A DNA stretch of 64,000 bases, taken from the NCBI GenBank assembly GCA_021819435.1, contig JAKARB010000003.1:62001-126000 (forward strand), in the 5' to 3' direction. Of the stretch, positions 1 through 11,329 are shown piece after piece. The stretch's first letter is position 1. Each line of letters begins with the position of its first letter. The DNA is from Pseudomonadota bacterium. Lineage in GTDB: Bacteria; Pseudomonadota; Gammaproteobacteria; Burkholderiales; Burkholderiaceae_C. The notes below the pieces were generated by a model. The model ran no database searches and was not told where the DNA came from. It worked only from the letters and a program-made list of their open reading frames with translations. The position numbers and the translations under genes were made by a program.

Positions 1-1623
1 GCCACTGGCGCGCATTCGGGCTCGCTGCCAGGTGCCCCCGCGTACGAAGACGTGCCTTCGCTGCCTGTCGTCGCACCGCCGGGTCAGGTGCCCGCATCGT
101 TCTCGGGCGACCTGCCGCTGGATGCGCACAACCCTGCTGCGGTCACGCAGGGCCTGCAACCCCAGTTGACACTCAACCCGCTCGACTGGGGCTTGCCCAG
201 CGACCAGGACCTGAGCGAGCTGCTGAGCCTGCGCTCGCCCACGCGCACCCCGCAGGACGCCGCCGGCATCGGCCAGGCGCCGTCGTTCTACTTCCTGACC
301 CAGGGTTTCGCCGGCCTGGCGGGCCACTCGCCCGGCTTGCAGGTGCCCGGTCAGGCAGCCCGGCCGCTGTCGCCCCAGGCCAATGGCTTCAACCCGGGCG
401 TCGATGTCAACCTCGTGCGCCGCGACTTCCCCGTGCTGCGCGAGCACGTCAACGGCAAACCGCTGATCTGGCTGGACAACGCCGCCACGACGCACAAGCC
501 GCAGTCGGTGATCGACCGCATCGCGTACTTCTACGCACACGAGAACTCGAACATCCACCGCGCAGCGCACGAGCTGGCCGCGCGCGCCACGGATGCCTAC
601 GAGGCAGCGCGCGAGAAGGTGCGGGGCTTCATCAACGCGCGCTCGGTCAACGAGATCGTGTTCGTGCGTGGCACCACCGAGGCCATCAACCTGGTGGCCA
701 AGAGCTGGGGCGAAGCGAACCTGCGCGAGGGCGATGAGATCGTGGTGAGCCACCTGGAGCACCACGCCAACATCGTGCCCTGGCAGCAGTTGTGCGCCCG
801 CACGGGCGCGAAGCTGCGCGTGATCCCGGTGGACGACGACGGCCAGGTGCTGCTCGATGAGTACGCGAAGCTGCTGGGTCCGCGCACCAAGCTCGTGTCC
901 TTCACGCAGGTGTCGAACGCGCTGGGCACGGTCACGCCCGCCAGGCAGATGGTGGCCATGGCCCACAGCGCTGGCGCCAAGGTGCTGGTCGATGGCGCGC
1001 AGTCGGTTTCGCACATGCGCGCCGACGTGCTCGATCTGGACTGCGACTGGTTCGTCTTCTCGGGCCACAAGGTGTTCGCGCCCACGGGCATCGGCGTGCT
1101 CTACGGCAAGGAGGCCTTGCTCAACGACACCCCGCCCTGGCAAGGCGGCGGCAACATGATCAAGGACGTGACCTTCGAGCACACGCAGTACCACGATGCC
1201 CCGGGCCGCTTCGAAGCCGGCACGGGCAACATCGCGGACGCGGTGGGGCTGGGCGCGGCCATCGATTACGTGCAGAAGCTGGGCATCGAGAACATCGGCG
1301 CCTACGAGCACCAGTTGCTGCTGTACGCGACGCGCCTGCTCAAGGACGTGCCGGGCCTCAAACTCATCGGCACGGCCCCTGACAAGGCCGCGGTGCTGTC
1401 CTTCACGCTGGAGGGCTACCAGACCGAAGAGGTCGGCCGAGCCCTCAACGAAGAAGGCATCGCCGTGCGATCGGGCCACCACTGCGCGCAGCCCATCCTG
1501 CGCCGCTTCGGGCTGGAGGCCACGGTTCGTCCGTCGCTGGCGTTCTACAACACCTGCGGCGAGATCGACACGCTGGTGGGCGTGCTGCATCGCCTGTCGG
1601 GCGGCCGTCGGCATCGGCGTTGA
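1..1623 (+). CDS. Cysteine desulfurase, family 2A encapsulin cargo type (5' partial)
   Basis: PLP-dependent SufS/NifS-class cysteine desulfurase, which takes sulfur from L-cysteine as an enzyme persulfide. The frame is open from base 1, so the start lies outside the window; the GTG at 52 is only the first track start. The first ~118 residues after that GTG are Pro/Gly/Ala-rich and probably disordered, with islands LNPLDWGLPSD and PSFYFL. The catalytic domain then begins at VDVNLVRRDFPVL. Visible active-site elements are LDNAATT, the PLP lysine in FSGHKVF and the persulfide cysteine in RSGHHCAQP. Plain SufS is about 405 aa, so the extension is extra. As I recall, this extension and its FYFL segment are typical of desulfurases packaged in family 2A encapsulins (SrpI shells), whose shell gene usually sits next door; that side is cut off. 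Sulfonate genes follow, which fits a sulfur role. Desulfurase is certain; encapsulin cargo is likely. Confidence 0.85.
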   Translation, partial: ATGAHSGSLPGAPAYEDVPSLPVVAPPGQVPASFSGDLPLDAHNPAAVTQGLQPQLTLNPLDWGLPSDQDLSELLSLRSPTRTPQDAAGIGQAPSFYFLTQGFAGLAGHSPGLQVPGQAARPLSPQANGFNPGVDVNLVRRDFPVLREHVNGKPLIWLDNAATTHKPQSVIDRIAYFYAHENSNIHRAAHELAARATDAYEAAREKVRGFINARSVNEIVFVRGTTEAINLVAKSWGEANLREGDEIVVSHLEHHANIVPWQQLCARTGAKLRVIPVDDDGQVLLDEYAKLLGPRTKLVSFTQVSNALGTVTPARQMVAMAHSAGAKVLVDGAQSVSHMRADVLDLDCDWFVFSGHKVFAPTGIGVLYGKEALLNDTPPWQGGGNMIKDVTFEHTQYHDAPGRFEAGTGNIADAVGLGAAIDYVQKLGIENIGAYEHQLLLYATRLLKDVPGLKLIGTAPDKAAVLSFTLEGYQTEEVGRALNEEGIAVRSGHHCAQPILRRFGLEATVRPSLAFYNTCGEIDTLVGVLHRLSGGRRHRR

Positions 1624-1724: not shown

Positions 1725-3047
1725 ATGCCGTTGTTGTCCTTGTCATCCGCACCGTCTCCTTTCACCCCCGCCTCATCTTTCCGCCGGCCTCAGCGCCGCC
1801 ACAGGCTGCTCATCACAGCGGCGCTGCTGGCGGCTTCGTTTGGGTCTGCGCACGCCACCAACGGCTACTTCGCACACGGGTATGGCGCGCAGTCGCTGGG
1901 CATCGCCGGGGTGGCCATCGCCTTGCCTCAAGACGCGCTGGCGATCGCGTCCAACCCGGCGGGCATCGCGCAACTGGGCTCTCGGTTCGACGCCGGCCTG
2001 ACCCTGTTCCGCCCCGAGCGCAGCGCCACCATCCGTGGCAATGGCGTGCCGGGTTTCAACGGCGAATACAGCGGCGACGGCAAGAAGAACTTCTGGATTC
2101 CTGAGCTGGGCTACACCCGCGCCATCGACCCGAAGCTGAGCGTCGGCCTGGCCATTTACGGCAACGGCGGCATGAACACGCGCTACGAGCGCAACCCCTT
2201 CGGCGCCATCGGTGGCCAGGGCCGAGCCGGGGTCAACCTCGAACAAATCTTCGTTTCACCCGCGCTGGCCTACAAGCTCGACGACCAGCACACGCTGGGC
2301 GTGGCGCTCAACCTCGTGCACCAGCGCTTCTCGGCCGAAGGCCTGCAGCCCTTCGCACAGGCCGGCACCTCATCGGCGCCTCAACACGTCACAAACCAGG
2401 GCACCAGCAGCAGCTCGGGCGCTGGCATCCGCCTGGGCTGGCTCGGACAGTTGACGCCAGACTGGCAAGTGGGCGCCAGTTGGTCGTCGAAGGTGAACGG
2501 TTCCTTCGACCGCTACCGTGGCTTGTTCGCTGAAAGCGGCGGCTTCGACATCCCGGCCAATTGGGGATTGGGGGTGGCGTGGCAGGCGAGCCCTGACGTG
2601 AAGATCGCAGCGGACTACCAGCGCATCCTCTACAGCCAGGTGAAGTCGGTGGCCAACCCCTTGTCCAGGCTGCTGGCAGGCCAGGCGCTGGGCACGTCGG
2701 ACGGCCCCGGCTTCGGCTGGCGCGACATCAACGTCGTCAAGCTCGGCGTGAGCTGGCGGCAGTCGCAGCAACTGACGCTGAGGGCCGGCTACAGCCACGC
2801 CGACCAGCCCATTCCTTCAGACCAGACGCTGTTCAACATCCTCGCACCCGGCGTGGTGCAGGACCACCTCACGGCGGGCTTCACCTGGCGCATCGACGCG
2901 CATGGCGAAGTCACCGGCTACTACGCGCACGCGCTCAACAAAGAGGTCAAGGGACAAGGCTCCATCCCGTCCACGTTCGGAGGTGGCGAGGCCGACATCC
3001 GCATGAAGCAGAACATCTTCGGCGTGGCCTACGGCTGGAAGTTCTGA
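1725..3047 (+). CDS. OmpP1/FadL-family outer-membrane channel
   Basis: Predicted outer-membrane beta-barrel of the OmpP1/FadL/TodX family (440 aa), which carries hydrophobic compounds across the outer membrane. The N-terminus has a long basic stretch, a hydrophobic core and a likely signal-peptidase site before TNGYFAHGYGAQ. The mature start, followed by an alternation of Gly/aromatic strands and the NPAG motif (SNPAGIAQLG), is typical of the family. It ends in an aromatic residue (FGVAYGWKF), as barrels usually do. It sits 100 bp downstream of the cysteine desulfurase and 105 bp before ssuA, on the same strand, so it probably admits an organosulfur compound. The start at 1725 is the only ATG before the signal core. 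Substrate is inferred from context only. Confidence 0.85.
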   Translation: MPLLSLSSAPSPFTPASSFRRPQRRHRLLITAALLAASFGSAHATNGYFAHGYGAQSLGIAGVAIALPQDALAIASNPAGIAQLGSRFDAGLTLFRPERSATIRGNGVPGFNGEYSGDGKKNFWIPELGYTRAIDPKLSVGLAIYGNGGMNTRYERNPFGAIGGQGRAGVNLEQIFVSPALAYKLDDQHTLGVALNLVHQRFSAEGLQPFAQAGTSSAPQHVTNQGTSSSSGAGIRLGWLGQLTPDWQVGASWSSKVNGSFDRYRGLFAESGGFDIPANWGLGVAWQASPDVKIAADYQRILYSQVKSVANPLSRLLAGQALGTSDGPGFGWRDINVVKLGVSWRQSQQLTLRAGYSHADQPIPSDQTLFNILAPGVVQDHLTAGFTWRIDAHGEVTGYYAHALNKEVKGQGSIPSTFGGGEADIRMKQNIFGVAYGWKF

Positions 3048-3152: not shown

Positions 3153-4145
3153 ATGAATTCCCGGATCGCCTTTGCTCGCCGCCATTTGCTGGGCACCTTG
3201 GGCCGTGGACTGCTGTCGACCCTGATGGCCGCGAGCCTGTTGGGCGCCGGCCTGGCACAAGCGCAGGCACAGAACGCGGTGCTGCGCGTGGGCTACCAGA
3301 AGTACGGCACGCTCACCATCCTCAAGGGCAAGGGTGACCTGGAAAAGCGCCTGGCACCGCTGGGTGTCAGCATCAAGTGGGTGGAGTTCCCCGCTGGTCC
3401 GCAACTGCTCGAAGGCTTGAACGTCGGCTCCATCGACTTCGGCACCGTGGGCGAAGCCCCGCCCATCTTCGCGCAAGCCGCTGGGGCCGACCTGGTCTAC
3501 GTGGCCAACCAGCCGCCCGCGCCAACGGCAGAGGCCATCGTCGTGCCCAAGGGCTCCACCATCACATCGGTGGCTCAGCTCAAGGGCAAGAAGGTGGTGC
3601 TCAACAAGGGATCGAACGTGCACTACCTGCTGGTCAAGGCGCTCGAGAAAGCCGGCCTGCAATACAGCGACATCCAGGTGGTCTTCCTGCCTCCGGCCGA
3701 TGCACGCGCGGCTTTCGAGCGTGGCAGCGTGGACGCCTGGGCCATCTGGGACCCCTTCCTCGCGGCCGCTGAAAAACAGATCGGTGCACGCGTGATCGCC
3801 GATGGCAAGGGCATCGTCGCCAACCACCAGTTCTACCTGGCCTCGCGCAAGTACGCGAACCAGAACCCCGGGGTGATCAAGGCCATCGTGTCCGAGCTGC
3901 AGAAGCTCGACGTGTGGGCCGCCAACGATGTCAAGGCGGCAACCGCCGTCCTCGCACCAGAAATTGGCCTGGGTCCGGAGATCACCGAGCGGTCCCTGCG
4001 CCGCATGGCTTATGGCATCCAGCCCATCACCGCCCAGGTCGCGGCAGAGCAGCAGAAGGTGGCCGACACCTTCGCTGGCTTGAAGCTCATCCCCAAGCCC
4101 ATCCGCATCACCGACGCCTTGCCCGAAGGCGTGGCCACGAAGTGA
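3153..4145 (+). CDS. ssuA: Aliphatic sulfonate ABC transporter, substrate-binding protein
   Basis: Periplasmic binding protein of the SsuA/TauA/NrtA class (330 aa). A signal peptide ends near AQAQAQ, followed by NAVLRVGYQKYGTLTILKGKGDLE, the typical SsuA mature start. Other family segments are VEFPAGPQLLEGLNVGSIDFG, PPIFAQAAG and the hallmark AFERGSVDAWAIWDPF. The start at 3153 has an AAAAAAGGA ribosome-binding region. It opens the ssuA-ssuD-ssuC-ssuB set and would bind alkanesulfonates in the periplasm for SsuCB. A second protein sharing many of these segments lies at 7180-8154 on the other strand. Confidence 0.93.
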   Translation: MNSRIAFARRHLLGTLGRGLLSTLMAASLLGAGLAQAQAQNAVLRVGYQKYGTLTILKGKGDLEKRLAPLGVSIKWVEFPAGPQLLEGLNVGSIDFGTVGEAPPIFAQAAGADLVYVANQPPAPTAEAIVVPKGSTITSVAQLKGKKVVLNKGSNVHYLLVKALEKAGLQYSDIQVVFLPPADARAAFERGSVDAWAIWDPFLAAAEKQIGARVIADGKGIVANHQFYLASRKYANQNPGVIKAIVSELQKLDVWAANDVKAATAVLAPEIGLGPEITERSLRRMAYGIQPITAQVAAEQQKVADTFAGLKLIPKPIRITDALPEGVATK

Positions 4146-4174
4146 CCTGACCGAGCACCCGACTGGAGTCCACC

Positions 4175-5365
4175 ATGCGCATTTTCTGGTTCATCCCGAC
4201 CCACGGTGACGCCCGCTACCTCGGCACCAGCCACGGCGGCCGGGACGCCACCTTCGCCTACTTCAAGCAGGTGGCCATCGCGGCTGACAGCCTGGGTTAC
4301 GAGGGGGTGCTGCTGCCCACCGGGCGTTCTTGTGAGGACTCATGGATCCTGGCGGCCAGCCTGATCGACGTGACTCGCCAGTTGAAGTTCCTGGTGGCGC
4401 TGCGCCCGGGCTTGATCCAGCCTGCGCAAACCGCGCGCATGGCCGCCACGCTGGACCGCATCTCGGGCGGCCGCTTGCTGGTGAACCTGGTGACTGGCGG
4501 CGACCCAGAGGAACTCGAAGGCGATGGCCTCTTCCTGAGCCACCAGGACCGCTACGTGCTGTCGCGCGAGTTCCTGACCATCTGGCGTGAGGTGCTGTCG
4601 CGCAGCCACGCGGGCGAAGGCTTCGATTTCGACGGCCAGCACCTCCAGGTCAAGGGCGCCAAGTTGCTGTACCCGCCGGTCAACCGGCCATACCCGCCGA
4701 TCTTTTTCGGCGGCTCGTCGGAAGAGGCGCACGAACTGGCGGCCGAGCAACTCGACACCTACCTCACCTGGGGCGAACCACCGGCCGCCGTGGCGGCCAA
4801 GGTGGCCGACATCACCCGGCGCGCCGAGAAGCATGGCCGCAAGCTGAGCTTCGGGATCCGGCTGCATGTCATCGTGCGCGAAACGGAAGACGCCGCGTGG
4901 CAGGCCGCGGGCGAGCTGCTCTCGCACCTCGACGAAAGCACCGTCAAGGCCGCGCAGCAGAAGTTCTCACAGATGGATTCCGTCGGGCAACGCCGCATGG
5001 CCGAGCTGAACAAGGGCCGATTCAACCGCCACAACGTGCGCGAAGGACTTGAGGTGTATCCGAACCTGTGGGCAGGCGTGGGCCTGGTTCGCGGTGGTGC
5101 GGGCACCGCCCTGGTGGGCAATCCCCAGCAGGTGGCCAACCTGATCAAGGAGTACGCGGCGCTGGGCCTGGACTACTTCATCCTGTCCGGCTACCCCCAC
5201 CTCGAAGAAGCCCACCGCTTCGCCGAGCTCGTCTTCCCGCTGCTGCCGCGCAGCGTTCAGGATCGCTTCACCCAGCAAGCTCCACAGGGCCCACGTGGCG
5301 AGATCGTGGCGAATGCCTACGTGCCCCCAGACACGCAGCCCGTGCCGCAAACATCGGCCAGTTGA
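4175..5365 (+). CDS. ssuD: FMNH2-dependent alkanesulfonate monooxygenase
   Basis: SsuD of the bacterial luciferase-like flavin monooxygenase family (396 aa; usual length about 380). It cleaves the C-S bond of alkanesulfonates with FMNH2 and O2, giving aldehyde and sulfite in the cytoplasm. The start [23 protein letters not shown] is diagnostic, and [17 protein letters not shown] and [21 protein letters not shown] are classical SsuD segments. It begins 29 bp after ssuA with a GGAG-type site and is followed by the permease gene. No NADPH:FMN reductase (SsuE) gene is in the window, so reduced flavin must come from elsewhere. Confidence 0.96.
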
Positions 5366-5384
5366 ATCAATCAGCGACACTGCC

Positions 5385-6188
5385 ATGGCTCATCAAACCC
5401 TCTTCTCATCGCTTCGGAGCGTCCGCGCCAATCGCCTGCTGCCCTGGCTGCTGCCGATCGGGCTGATGGCCGTTTGGGAGCTGAGCGCCCGCGCCGGCTG
5501 GTTGTCCACCCGCATCCTGCCCGAGCCCTGGTCGGTGCTCACCTCATTCTGGCAACTCGCGGTGAGCGGCGAGCTGTGGCAGCACCTCGGTGTGAGCGCG
5601 GCTCGTGCCCTGACCGGGCTGGCCATCGGGGGCGGCCTGGGGCTGCTGCTGGGCCTGCTCACAGGCAGCGTGCGCTGGGCCGAGACCCTGCTCGACACCA
5701 GCTTGCAGATGGTGCGCAACATCCCGCCGCTGGCCTTGATCCCGCTGGTCATCCTTTGGTTCGGCATCGACGAGACGGCCAAGCTGTTCCTGGTCGCTGT
5801 GGGCGTGTTCTTCCCCATCTACCTCAACACCTTCCACGGCATCCGCTCGGTGGACCCGGGTCTGATCGAGATGGCGCGCAGCTACGGGCTGAGTGGTTGG
5901 CAGCTTTACCGACAGGTGATCCTGCCGGGCGCGCTGCCCTCCATCCTGGTTGGCTTGCGTTTTTCGCTGGGCCTGATGTGGGTGCTGCTGATCGTGGCCG
6001 AAACCATCTCCGCGCAATCAGGCATTGGCTACATGACCATGAACGCGCGCGAGTTCCTGCAGACCGATGTGGTGCTCGTGGGCATCATCCTGTACGCCCT
6101 GCTCGGCAAGATCGCCGATGTGCTGGCACGCGGCCTGGAGCAAGTGGCCCTGCGCTGGCACCCGGGCTATCAACCTGAAACAGCCTGA
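5385..6188 (+). CDS. ssuC: Sulfonate ABC transporter permease
   Basis: Inner-membrane permease of the BPD_transp_1 superfamily (267 aa from the ATG at 5385). The track start at 5295 would overlap ssuD by 71 bp and add a hydrophilic extension, so I chose 5385, where MAHQTLFSS leads directly into the first hydrophobic helix. About six transmembrane segments are visible. The EAA-type coupling loop for the ATPase reads DPGLIEMARSYGLSGWQLYRQVILPGALPSI. It would pair with SsuB (next gene) and SsuA to import sulfonates. Confidence 0.92.
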   Translation: MAHQTLFSSLRSVRANRLLPWLLPIGLMAVWELSARAGWLSTRILPEPWSVLTSFWQLAVSGELWQHLGVSAARALTGLAIGGGLGLLLGLLTGSVRWAETLLDTSLQMVRNIPPLALIPLVILWFGIDETAKLFLVAVGVFFPIYLNTFHGIRSVDPGLIEMARSYGLSGWQLYRQVILPGALPSILVGLRFSLGLMWVLLIVAETISAQSGIGYMTMNAREFLQTDVVLVGIILYALLGKIADVLARGLEQVALRWHPGYQPETA

Positions 6189-6197
6189 CCGCCTCCC

Positions 6198-7073
6198 ATG
6201 AGCAGCCCTGTCCACACCTTCGCCCAACAAACATTTCCCTCGGCTCAACACGGCGTCAGCCTGAGGGTGCGCAAGCTCGGACAGCGCTTTGGCGAACGCC
6301 AGGTGCTGACCGACATCGACCTCGACATCGCACCAGGGGGCTTCGTGGCCATCGTCGGGCGCAGCGGTTGCGGCAAAAGCACTTTGCTGCGATTGCTGGC
6401 CGGCCTGGACCACGCCAGCACCGGCCACATCGAGGTCGACGGACAGGCGCTGGATCTGCGCTCGCCGGCCAGCCAGGGTGTGCGGTTGATGTTCCAGGAC
6501 GCTCGTCTGCTGCCTTGGAAATCGGTGGGCGAAAACGTGGCCTTGGGCCTTCACGGCCGAGATGTGGCCCAACGCGTGAAGGAAGCACTCGCCGCCGTCG
6601 GCCTTGAAGACCGTGCCAACGACTGGCCCGCCAAGCTGTCGGGAGGCCAGAGGCAACGCGTGGCGCTGGCCCGGGCCCTGGTACACCGCCCGCGCCTGCT
6701 GCTGCTCGACGAGCCCTTGGGTGCGCTCGATGCCCTCACCCGCATCGAGATGCAGCAGCTCATCGAGGGCCTTTGGCAGGCCCATCGCTTCACCGCCGTG
6801 CTGGTCACCCACGACGTGTCCGAGGCCGTTGCGCTGGCCGACCGCATCCTGCTGATCGAAGAGCAGGTGGTGGCCTTGGACCAGACCGTGGCGCTGCCCC
6901 GGCCGCGCCCACGTGGCAGCGCCAGTTTCGCCGCGCTCGAAGACGCGGTGTTGCAGCGTGTGCTGAAAAAGCAGCCTGCCACGCAAGCCTCATCGCACAC
7001 CGCACCGCAAGCCGCTGGCGAAACGCCATCGTCGCCCGCGGCCCCCATCCCTCGCTTCGACCTCGCGGCCTGA
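6198..7073 (+). CDS. ssuB: Sulfonate ABC transporter ATP-binding protein
   Basis: ABC ATPase (291 aa). Walker A is GRSGCGKST, the signature [15 protein letters not shown], Walker [14 protein letters not shown], with the switch His in VTHDVSEA. It begins 10 bp after ssuC. N-terminal residues before the ABC core (about 20) and a Pro/Ala/Ser-rich tail of some 40 residues make it longer than the usual ~255 aa SsuB. It closes the ssu set; the next gene converges from the other strand, leaving a 106-bp gap without an obvious strong terminator hairpin. Confidence 0.93.
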
Positions 7074-7179: not shown

Positions 7180-8154
7180 TCACGACCGGGCCTGCCACAC
7201 CACCTCTGACACCTTGACCGCCTTCGGGATCAACCCCTGCTGGTGGAAGGTGTCGGCCACCCGTTGCTGCTCGGCGATGAGCTCGGGCCACAAGGGACGG
7301 GTGGGTGTGGCCGGCCTGCGCTCCAGGAACTTGAACACGGTGGCCAGGCCAAGACCACTGAACTCGGACAGCAGCCGAGCGGCATCGGGCCGGTTGGCCT
7401 GCACCCAGCGGTCCACCTCGGTGAGGCTGTTGAGCAGGGCCGTCACGGCTTGCGGGTGCGCCCGCACCCAGTCGGGGTGCCCGAGGTAGAAGGAGTTGTT
7501 GTCGGACAGGCCTACACCGTTGCTCAGCACGCGGGGCTTCACATCAACCTCGGCCGCCGCGTAGAACGGATCCCAGATGCCCCAAGCATCGACGCTGCCA
7601 CGCTCGAAGGCTGCGCGAGCCTCGGAAGGCGTCAGGTAAAGCGGCTGGATGTCCGCCCAGGGAACGCCAGCCTTGGCAAGCGCGCGCACCACGAGGAAAT
7701 GCGCACTCGAACCCCGCTGGAAAGCCACCCGCTTGCCTCTGAGATCGCCCAGAACCCTCAGCGGAGAAGACGCAGGCACCAGGATCGCCGAACTCTGTGG
7801 CTTGGGCAGCTCAGCGCCGATGTAGAGCAGCGACTTGCCCGCTGACTGGGCGAACACGGGTGGTGAATCACCCGTGAAGCCCACGTCGAGGCTGCCCACC
7901 GACAAGGCCTCGAGGATTTGCGGGCCGGCGGGAAACTCGACCCACTGCAGCCTCGTGCCCGGGAAGGCGCGCTCAAGCAAGCCGCGCTGCTTGAGAACGA
8001 CGAGGTTGACCGAACTCTTCTGAAAGCCAATGCGCAACTGCGCCGGCACGGAGCCCCTGGGGCTGGCCTGCGCATGGGCCCAGGCAGGCAGGGCCGATGT
8101 CGCCGCGCAGGCAGAAGCGATCAGGAAGCTCCGACGGTCATCGAAAAGGGGCAT
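7180..8154 (-). CDS. Second SsuA-like sulfonate-binding protein
   Basis: Periplasmic binding protein (324 aa) of the same family as the SsuA at 3153-4145; segments such as AQLRIGFQKSSVNLVVLKQRG, VEFPAGPQILEALSVGSLDVGFTGDSPPVFAQSAG and AFERGSVDAWGIWDPFYAAAE are shared. The N-terminus (DDRRSFLIASACAATSALPAWAHAQ) looks like a Tat or Sec signal. It has no permease or ATPase beside it on its own strand, so it may feed the adjacent SsuCB with a different substrate. It is divergent from dsbD, with the shared 280-bp region holding the conserved regulatory element at 8336. Substrate is unknown. Confidence 0.88.
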   Translation of the reverse strand: MPLFDDRRSFLIASACAATSALPAWAHAQASPRGSVPAQLRIGFQKSSVNLVVLKQRGLLERAFPGTRLQWVEFPAGPQILEALSVGSLDVGFTGDSPPVFAQSAGKSLLYIGAELPKPQSSAILVPASSPLRVLGDLRGKRVAFQRGSSAHFLVVRALAKAGVPWADIQPLYLTPSEARAAFERGSVDAWGIWDPFYAAAEVDVKPRVLSNGVGLSDNNSFYLGHPDWVRAHPQAVTALLNSLTEVDRWVQANRPDAARLLSEFSGLGLATVFKFLERRPATPTRPLWPELIAEQQRVADTFHQQGLIPKAVKVSEVVWQARS

Positions 8155-8335
8155 GGGCGCAGTCTCCGCTCAGTCATGGTTGGGAAGGAAAGACCGCCAT
8201 CAATCTACGACCAGCCCAGCCTTGCCACAACCATCCGTCACGCATGCTCAAGCTCGGTTTCCGCATGTGCAAGGCGGGCACTGGCAAGAGGGTCATGCAA
8301 GGCCACACAGGGTCACGCGGCACATATGCCGCCAT

Positions 8336-8391
8336 CGCATGAGCGCATGCACAAGGGTCGCTTCACAGGCCGGAACTGCCTTCCATAGACT
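8336..8391 (+). promoter_or_regulatory. Repeated GCATG/CGCTTCAC element with promoter-like boxes ahead of dsbD
   Basis: The 38 bp at 8336-8373 match 31 of 38 positions of 1641-1678, including CGCTTCACA. The -35-like TTCACA (8362-8367) is followed after 18 bp by TAGACT (8386-8391), and the dsbD start lies 43 bp further. The left part holds two GCATG words 8 bp apart and could be a regulator site. It sits between ssuA-2 (minus) and dsbD (plus), so it could serve both. Promoter assignment is inference from the base pattern. Confidence 0.5.
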
Positions 8392-8434
8392 CCGCGCTCG
8401 ATTTCGTCCCGCATTCAGCCTGCCTTCATCCAGG

Positions 8435-10696
8435 ATGCCTCCGAGTTCTTTTCCCTCCGCATTGCTGCGCCTTGCACACACCGCCAAACGGGCCAGCCTG
8501 GCGATGGGGCTTGCTCTGCTGTCGACATCGGCCGCACAGGCGGTCGAGGCCCTTGCACAAGCTCGCACCGAGCAGGTCACCGTGAGCTTGCTGCCCAGCC
8601 ACGGCCAGGTGGTGCCCGGCGGCACGTTGCGCGTGGGCATCCGCCAGGTGCTGGCTCCGCACTGGCACACCTATTGGGTGAACCCGGGGGACTCCGGCAT
8701 GGCCACACGGTTGCAATGGCACCTGCCACCGGGTTGGCAGGCTGGCGCCATCCAGTGGCCCGTTCCGCAGCGCATCGATGTCGGGCCCATCACCAACCAC
8801 GGCTATGAGCGCGAGGTGACGCTGCTCGTCGATGTGGCAGCGCCGCGCGATGCGGTGGTCGGCCAAGCCACCGAGCTCGCGGCGGATGTGAGCTGGCTCG
8901 TCTGCCAGGACGTTTGCATCCCGCAGCAGGCCAGCTTGTCGGTGCCCGTCACCATCGGTCATGAAGCGGTGGCGATCGATGCCAACCGCGAGGCGTTGCT
9001 GGCCGCGCAGCGCTCTCTGCCGCGCCACACCGATGTGCCCACTGAGGTGCTGCACACATCCCAGGGCTTGTTGATCGGGCTGTCGGGCCAACCCGCCACG
9101 GGGCAGGAGGTCTACTTTTTCGCCGAAGCCTGGGGCGTCACGCAGCACAACGCCAAGCCAGTCGTCCATCAGGCCGGTGGCCGCTGGTGGTTGCTGGCGC
9201 CGCATGGCGACGATGCGCGCCACGCGGGCGACGAGGTCTCGGGGGTGTTGCGCATCGGCGCAGCCGGCACCGAAGTGCGGACCACGCTCGTCGCAGCACC
9301 GCCAGCCCTGCTAGCTGGTCTGACCTGGACGCGGACGCAAGCCGATTCTTCCGATGCGAAGGCCCATATCACACAGCCAGGCCCTGACGCCCCGCACGCG
9401 CTCGCACCTGTGGCGGAAATCGATTTCGACGCGATCACCTTCCTCACCGCCTTGAGCCTGGCCTTTCTCGGTGGCGTGATCCTCAACCTGATGCCCTGTG
9501 TGTTCCCGGTGCTGTCGATCAAAGCCCTGTCCCTTTTGCAGCACCCAGACCGCAGCCGTTCACAGCGCATCGCGCAGGGCTCGGCCTACGCCTTTGGCGT
9601 GGTGCTGAGCTTCGTGGCGCTGGCGGCGTTGCTGCTGGCCCTGAAGGCCACGGGGCGAGAGGTCGGCTGGGGCTTCCAGTTCCAGCAACCCACCTTCGTG
9701 CTGCTGCTCGGCGGCTTGCTGTTCGCGGTGGGCCTGAACCTGCTGGGCGTGTTCGAAGTGGGCCAGGGCCTCGCGGGCATCGGCGGTCAGTTGGTCGAGC
9801 GCGAGGGCCTTGGCGGCAGCTTCTTCACCGGCGTGCTGGCCACCGTCGTGGCCACGCCTTGCACCGCTCCGTTCATGGCCAGTGCGGTGGGCTATGCGCT
9901 CACGCAAACGGCCGGCGTGGTGCTGGCCATCTTCACCTCGCTGGGCCTGGGCCTGGCCACGCCCTACCTGTTGCTGAGCACCTGGCCCGCGCTGCAACGC
10001 CGCCTGCCCCGACCTGGCCCGTGGATGCTGCGCTTCAAGCAGGCCCTGGCATTTCCGATGTTCGCGTCGGTCGTGTGGCTGGTGTGGGTGCTGGCGCAGC
10101 AGACCGGGCCCGATGGCGTGGTGGTTGCCTTGGGGGCGCTGCTGGCCATCGGCCTGGCAGGTTGGCTGCTGGGCACGGCCCAGTTCAGCCGTGGTGCGAC
10201 CTGGCCACGCCTTGGCCGAGGGCTGGCCGGCGCGCTCGTGCTGGCCACCATCGGCGTTGGCGCCTGGTCGCTGCCCGAGACCGGGGGCGCTTCATCGACA
10301 CCGACAGCCGCATCGGCCCCGAACGGCGCCGCATGGGAGCCGTTCTCACAAGCCCGGCTGGACGCCTTGCGCGCCGAAGGCAAACCGGTGTTCGTCAACT
10401 TCACCGCGGCCTGGTGCATCACCTGCCTCGTCAACGAACGGACTGCGCTGAGCCAGGATCGCGTGCTGTCTGCGTTCAAGTCGCTGGGCGTCACCTACCT
10501 CAAGGGCGACTGGACCCACCAGAACCCCGAGATCACACGCGTGCTGGGCCAGCATGGCCGCAGCGGGGTGCCGCTTTACCTCTTCTTCGGCGCTGGCTCA
10601 CAGACGCCCGCCGCCGTGCTGCCTCAGGTGCTCACGCCAGATATCGTCATCCAGGCCATCGGTGGCGCTCACCTGAGCGCGTCTTCCCAACCCTGA
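8435..10696 (+). CDS. DsbD/ScsB-family protein-disulfide reductase
   Basis: Inner-membrane thiol transporter of the DsbD superfamily (753 aa from the ATG at 8435; the upstream part of the track ORF covers the promoter and is rejected). Order: signal peptide to about AAQAVEA; periplasmic N-domain with HWHTYWVNPGDSG and CQDVCIPQ; roughly eight membrane helices carrying the two family motifs NLMPCVFPVLSIKALSL and ATPCTAPFMASAVG; and a C-terminal thioredoxin-like domain with AAWCITCLVNE. Electrons from cytoplasmic thioredoxin would pass to periplasmic partners. The N-domain resembles ScsB/DipZ-like proteins more than classical E. coli DsbD. It is followed 15 bp on by a redoxin, and periplasmic thiol reduction is also needed by the Ccm system at 22-28 kb. 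Confidence 0.9.
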   Translation: MPPSSFPSALLRLAHTAKRASLAMGLALLSTSAAQAVEALAQARTEQVTVSLLPSHGQVVPGGTLRVGIRQVLAPHWHTYWVNPGDSGMATRLQWHLPPGWQAGAIQWPVPQRIDVGPITNHGYEREVTLLVDVAAPRDAVVGQATELAADVSWLVCQDVCIPQQASLSVPVTIGHEAVAIDANREALLAAQRSLPRHTDVPTEVLHTSQGLLIGLSGQPATGQEVYFFAEAWGVTQHNAKPVVHQAGGRWWLLAPHGDDARHAGDEVSGVLRIGAAGTEVRTTLVAAPPALLAGLTWTRTQADSSDAKAHITQPGPDAPHALAPVAEIDFDAITFLTALSLAFLGGVILNLMPCVFPVLSIKALSLLQHPDRSRSQRIAQGSAYAFGVVLSFVALAALLLALKATGREVGWGFQFQQPTFVLLLGGLLFAVGLNLLGVFEVGQGLAGIGGQLVEREGLGGSFFTGVLATVVATPCTAPFMASAVGYALTQTAGVVLAIFTSLGLGLATPYLLLSTWPALQRRLPRPGPWMLRFKQALAFPMFASVVWLVWVLAQQTGPDGVVVALGALLAIGLAGWLLGTAQFSRGATWPRLGRGLAGALVLATIGVGAWSLPETGGASSTPTAASAPNGAAWEPFSQARLDALRAEGKPVFVNFTAAWCITCLVNERTALSQDRVLSAFKSLGVTYLKGDWTHQNPEITRVLGQHGRSGVPLYLFFGAGSQTPAAVLPQVLTPDIVIQAIGGAHLSASSQP

Positions 10697-10711: not shown

Positions 10712-11329
10712 ATGCAACGCAGAACGCTCGTCTCGACCCTGTTCGCCGGACTGCTCGCCAGCGCCGCTTTGCCTCCGGCCTGGGCCGTTGAGGTGCAGCA
10801 GGCCGCACCCGATTTCACGGCACCAGGAGCCGATGGTCGGCCCATCCAGCTCAGCGCCTACCAAGGCAAGGTGGTGGTGCTGGAGTGGACCAACCACGAC
10901 TGTCCCTTCGTCAAGAAGCACTACGAGAGCGGCAACATCCCCAAGCTGCAGAAGGAAGCCGCGGCACAAGGCGTGGTGTGGCTGCAGGTCATCTCGTCGG
11001 CCCCCGGTCAGCAAGGGCATGTCGACGCCGCCACGGCCAAGCAGGTCAACGCATACCGCGATGCCAAGCCAGCAGGCATCGTGCTCGATGAAAACGGCGC
11101 GGTGGGCAGGCTGTATGGTGCGCGCACGACCCCGCACATCTTCGTGATCGACCAGCAGGGCAAGCTGGCCTACAAGGGTGGCATCGACAGCATCCCGTCG
11201 AACCGGCCCGAGGACATTGCCGAGGCAGAGCCTTATGCACGCAATGCCATCCAGGCCACGCTCAAGGGCCAGCGGGTGGCCAAGGCCAACACCCAGCCTT
11301 ACGGCTGCTCGGTGAAGTACGGCGGATGA
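10712..11329 (+). CDS. Secreted redoxin / AhpC-TSA-like thioredoxin-fold protein
   Basis: Thioredoxin-fold protein of 205 aa with a signal peptide (cleavage near PAWAVE). The core reads APDFTAPGADGRP, then the active-site region WTNHDCPFVKKHYESGNIP with a single cysteine, and a cis-Pro region RTTPHIFVID. The mature chain has one other Cys near the C-terminus (YGCSVKYGG). This matches the redoxin family often annotated as AhpC/TSA. It starts 15 bp after the dsbD-type gene, so it is a plausible periplasmic partner of that reductase. Substrate is unknown. Confidence 0.85.
   Translation: MQRRTLVSTLFAGLLASAALPPAWAVEVQQAAPDFTAPGADGRPIQLSAYQGKVVVLEWTNHDCPFVKKHYESGNIPKLQKEAAAQGVVWLQVISSAPGQQGHVDAATAKQVNAYRDAKPAGIVLDENGAVGRLYGARTTPHIFVIDQQGKLAYKGGIDSIPSNRPEDIAEAEPYARNAIQATLKGQRVAKANTQPYGCSVKYGG

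Follow-up and report, generated by a model that had tools for sequence, protein, structure and literature searches.

A family 2A encapsulin operon and its cysteine desulfurase cargo beside sulfate and sulfonate uptake genes in a Burkholderiales genome

The desulfurase gene at the edge of the window

We have analysed a window of 64,000 nucleotides (the whole stretch of DNA, C4:62001-126000) belonging to a genome of 4.41 Mb in 27 contigs that is 99.84% complete. The first gene, on the forward strand (1..1623), is open at the left edge of the window, and its remaining part was read from the upstream stretch of the same contig (L002, C4:50001-66000, in which base x of the window is base x + 12000). 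The full gene codes for 616 aa (C4:61773-63623, L002 11773-13623) and its ATG is found 228 bases to the left of the window, which carries the last 540 of the 616 codons (codons 77-616). Across aa 7-608 the product matched the NCBIfam model of the cysteine desulfurase CyD, the cargo of family 2A encapsulins (NF041166, 902 bits against a cut-off of 800), and its catalytic half is of the SufS type (TIGR01979, 559 bits, cut-off 475). Two residues, K433 in SGHK (1069..1071, +) and C571 in GHHCAQP (1483..1485, +), were invariant in 22 relatives and, by homology to SufS, would be the PLP-binding lysine and the active-site cysteine, respectively.

The operon of acetyltransferase, shell and cargo

Immediately upstream of CyD, and already outside the window, lies a gene for a shell protein of 305 aa (C4:60869-61786, L002 10869-11786), the end of which overlaps the start of CyD by 14 nt. 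It scored 534 bits with NF041162 (cut-off 380) and 353 bits with PF19307, it matched SrpI (PDB 6x8m) with an E value of 3e-157, and the sole Pfam domain detected in it is SrpI-like. This is the one shell gene of the genome. Directly upstream of it there is a serine O-acetyltransferase (SAT) of the EpsC type (about C4:59911-60831, also outside the window; the frame is open from L002 9827, with 9911 as the likely start), at 162 bits for a cut-off of 150. An earlier note on the window had recognised the SufS-type catalytic half, had taken the Pro-rich extension that precedes it for that of a family 2A cargo, and had asked for the upstream sequence to be read in the expectation of an SrpI-like shell gene and perhaps a serine acetyltransferase. 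Both genes are there, and neither of the two outcomes that it named as fatal (no shell gene anywhere in the genome, or an extension unlike that of known cargo) has occurred. CyD is thus predicted to be enclosed in a virus-like protein shell, and since the shell and partner genes stand just upstream of it, nothing is missing from the locus, which is an ordinary representative of a bacterial family of sulfur compartments that is already known.

The family 2B encapsulins have the shell fold in common with this protein, and the 2B model was also above its cut-off here (431 bits vs. 400), with a lower score than that of the 2A model. However, family 2B carries a cyclic-nucleotide-binding domain. 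With a 2B profile of length 450, a shell of 305 aa is too short to accommodate this domain, and nothing in the protein matched it. We therefore class the shell, as judged from its sequence, as family 2A, SrpI-like and of the HK97 type, without a cyclic-nucleotide-binding domain. The family 2A shell of Acinetobacter baumannii is 74% identical to it over the whole length.

The first family 2A encapsulin to be described was SrpI/CyD of Synechococcus elongatus PCC 7942, on plasmid pANL, where the genes follow the order cysK-epsC-srpI-cyd-rhodanese. The order epsC-srpI-cyd is the same here, with identities of 78% for the shell, 73% for the catalytic part of CyD and 57% for SAT. There are also differences. 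The shell and cargo genes, overlapping by 14 nt in our genome, are separated in S. elongatus, and the cysK and rhodanese genes that flank the cyanobacterial operon were not recognised beside this one. Of the two accessory genes enriched in family 2A loci, for serine O-acetyltransferase and rhodanese, only the former was thus recognised here.

Within the same bacterial family, a shell gene above the cut-off was present in 55 of 301 genomes, and in all the loci examined (53 of 53, this genome included) SAT was upstream and CyD downstream of it. In many Bacteroidota the acetyltransferase is found downstream of CyD instead. The order shell-CyD-SAT (cysE) was seen on plasmid p3 of Azospirillum brasilense (L224), near denitrification genes and not nif genes. 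In two relatives the shell gene appears to be broken, either into two pieces in different frames (G004, L182) or by one in-frame TAG (G040, L177), and SAT and CyD still adjoin it. We considered a fusion of SAT and shell, suggested by three relatives in which the frame around the shell stays open for 463-623 aa, and rejected it, the two genes being in different frames. As for the divergent intergenic region ahead of the operon, no block clearly common to all emerged when six relatives were aligned, and a sigma-70 scan found nothing.

The cargo extension

The extension (aa 1-209) is strongly biased in composition, with 12.9% Pro and not a single Lys, compared with 3.7% of each in the remainder of CyD. 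The two elements singled out by the earlier note, LNPLDWGLPSD (aa 134-144) and PSFYFL (aa 170-175; 280..297, +), are real, and both are kept in relatives well above shuffled controls. Nichols et al. 2021 (PMC8049743) describe a pair of motifs for the extension of such cargo, LARLANEFFS and AASPYYFLDG, and we found a counterpart of each. The first is LAQLANQFFS (aa 17-26), which lies outside the window and was hence invisible to the earlier note; the second is QAPSFYFLTQ (aa 168-177), within the window and including PSFYFL, a motif assigned by pattern match and by its conservation in relatives. Searched as simple patterns in 92 relatives, motif 1 appeared in 19 and motif 2 in 50 (shuffled sequences gave ca. 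0 and 0.4). These motifs, together with the span of the cargo model (aa 7-608), make the extension resemble that of known cargo.

In the AlphaFold model of CyD the mean pLDDT was 65.7, with low confidence for most of aa 28-206, and the extension is predicted to be disordered. Only two short helices appear in this region and the N-end, at aa 14-26 (motif 1) and at aa 144-152, both with a modest confidence near 60. The second of them falls in a stretch that we consider to be a third conserved element of CyD's extension, LNPLDWGLPSDQDLSELLS (aa 134-152; 172..228, +), which begins with LNPLDWGLPSD. This sequence and the stretch that follows are nearly invariant within the Aquabacterium-like group. 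A profile of the element scored above 3 bits in 15 of 114 other cargo extensions, two of which (L006 and L130) come from that same group, while ten sets of shuffled sequences gave 0-1. The element (LNPLDWGLPSD..LL) is neither of the two motifs that PMC8049743 names in its text, and the extension of S. elongatus, which is divergent and shares with ours the second motif, does not have LNPLDWGLPSD. Its position is variable: in the Aquabacterium-like group and some relatives it comes ahead of the PSFYFL motif, and in the remaining members of the family that matched it comes after it. It is possible that this third helix-forming element, with a place relative to motif 2 that changes from one lineage to another, may act as a further docking contact.

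CyD and the Suf pathway

The score of the catalytic domain, above the cut-off of the SufS subfamily, could be taken to mean that CyD is an ordinary SufS devoted to Fe-S cluster assembly and that its extension has no meaning. We give this explanation virtually no probability, since CyD matches the cargo model over its full length and the shell gene overlaps its start. Moreover, SufE (PF02657) and SufB (TIGR01980) had zero matches in this 99.84% complete genome, while control genomes did give matches, and therefore a role of CyD in a canonical Suf system is excluded. Besides CyD, the clear cysteine desulfurases of the genome are two of the IscS type and one NifS-like (under the NifS cut-off), which leaves the encapsulated CyD as the only SufS-type desulfurase found.

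The sulfur uptake neighbourhood

Downstream of CyD, all on the forward strand, there is a gene for an outer-membrane protein of the FadL/TodX type (1725..3047, PF03349, 101 bits) and then a block for the uptake and use of sulfonates (3153..7073). The latter consists of ssuA (3153-4145) and ssuD (4175-5365), both identified by NCBIfam models, and of ssuC (about 5295-6188) and ssuB (6198-7073), assigned by reading the translations and by their matches in relatives. A second sulfonate-binding protein of the ssuA type faces the ssu operon from the reverse strand (7180..8154; NF008588, 358 bits, cut-off 299). Thus the sulfonate uptake genes that the earlier note had placed next to the compartment do adjoin the operon. 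Farther along, the translations of about 8030-10696 and about 10712-11329 read like a putative thiol:disulfide interchange protein of the DsbD type and a putative thioredoxin-family protein, respectively. The FadL/TodX-type gene, which sits between CyD and the ssu genes, has parallels at three other loci (L130, L157 and L176), where such a gene was found within 10 kb of the shell, in comparison with 0 of 40 background stretches.

To the left of the operon, on the opposite strand, we found a sulfate-binding protein (TIGR00971, 411 bits), a CysTWA importer and a CysB-type regulator, followed by nifA and nifB. Uptake genes of this kind are not peculiar to our genome. When we counted sulfate/sulfonate uptake genes in 20-kb stretches around the shell, they were near 21 of 53 encapsulin loci vs. 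2 of 40 background stretches (fixed coordinates in shell-bearing genomes), an enrichment (one-sided Fisher p = 7e-5) whose p value is only approximate because the loci are phylogenetically non-independent, related genomes being treated as independent.

The nitrogen fixation genes

Beyond the sulfate importer, and left of the window, extends a nif cluster (C4:32832-54771; L096 832-15367 plus L002 616-4771) with its genes identified by NCBIfam models: nifE, nifK, nifD, a NifS-like desulfurase, nifB (681 bits) and nifA (690 bits). Its right edge joins the sulfate importer that adjoins the encapsulin operon, so that the operon is ca. 6 kb from nifA with the importer in between. Because the importer has the operon on one side and the nif cluster on the other, one has to consider that the compartment serves nitrogen fixation here, buffering sulfur for the Fe-S clusters of nitrogenase. 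The proximity (nifA and nifB at 6-10 kb to the left of the shell gene, nifDKE farther out) speaks for it, and the comparison with relatives speaks against it. A nifD above the cut-off and a shell gene occurred together in 6 of the 301 genomes, when about 4 were expected (p 0.40), and only in this genome were they close to each other, the other five having them on different contigs or far apart. A member of the same genus (G242) has the block nifB-nifA-cysB-cysAWT-sbp, 89-97% identical, and no shell gene; conversely, four loci (L003, L007, L008 and L012) have the encapsulin and the sulfate importer, and nif genes are absent from the stretch examined. Neither a sigma-54 nor a NifA-type site was found when we looked ahead of the acetyltransferase. 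One-mismatch candidates for such sites did appear ahead of nifB and close to where the gene preceding nifD starts, with patterns that were barely above chance. We consequently reject a conserved link between nif genes and encapsulin, with no co-occurrence beyond chance, no conserved adjacency and no promoter site of the NifA type, and consider it very improbable indeed that the compartment serves nitrogen fixation in this organism. The locus gives the impression of two syntenic blocks with a sulfate importer in common. A narrower version, in which the compartment of this nitrogen-fixing lineage would have become joined to the nif locus through the shared importer and would buffer nitrogenase sulfur, also appears quite improbable to us. 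As a novelty, the third element of the cargo extension is smaller than such a nif-joined compartment, but better supported.

A sulfur store or a guarded desulfurase

The reading that we favour, with a probability of roughly 0.85, is that SAT, shell and CyD form a complete family 2A encapsulin operon in which CyD would be caged and sulfur from cysteine would be stored as a reserve, within an island for sulfur acquisition and storage. By homology, the shell would assemble into a closed icosahedral cage, and the disordered N-terminal domain would carry CyD inside it, as in the published work on loading. In S. elongatus, passages of PMC8049743 report that the N-terminal domain loads CyD, that sulfate starvation induces the system and that encapsulation raises the activity. 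The caged CyD would then take sulfur from cysteine and, to judge from the published relatives, the sulfur would be kept inside. Along similar lines, sulfur storage is ascribed to family 2A systems in passages of PMC10960027 and PMC12407261, by way of work cited there. The acetyltransferase would provide O-acetylserine for the synthesis of cysteine and the adjoining sulfate and sulfonate importers would bring in sulfur, and it is this combination that would make the locus an island of sulfur acquisition and storage.

The main rival to storage is a guarded desulfurase with directed sulfur transfer, in which encapsulation would limit the acceptor proteins and direct the sulfur of CyD to particular targets. 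This was proposed for these systems in PMC8346489, with transfer directed to a rhodanese, and the rhodanese gene after cyd in S. elongatus is in agreement with it. Here, however, we recognised no gene next to CyD for a rhodanese or another acceptor of sulfur, a difference from S. elongatus that also counts against our favoured reading. Moreover, SufE is absent, and the later papers (PMC10960027 and PMC12407261), in the passages mentioned, call these systems sulfur stores. We consider the guarded desulfurase unlikely, and storage of sulfur in the cage remains our preferred reading.

In summary, the truncated gene of the window belongs to a complete sulfur encapsulin, a well-formed member of an already known family, and our results support the guess of the earlier note on all the points that could be checked. 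What this locus adds is modest: the third cargo element, the missing Suf partners, and a neighbourhood of uptake genes that provides a quantified link between encapsulin operons and sulfate/sulfonate uptake in this Burkholderiales family. With SufE and SufB absent, and with CyD as the sole SufS-type desulfurase found, this is an organism in which the role of CyD could be examined without interference from the Suf pathway.
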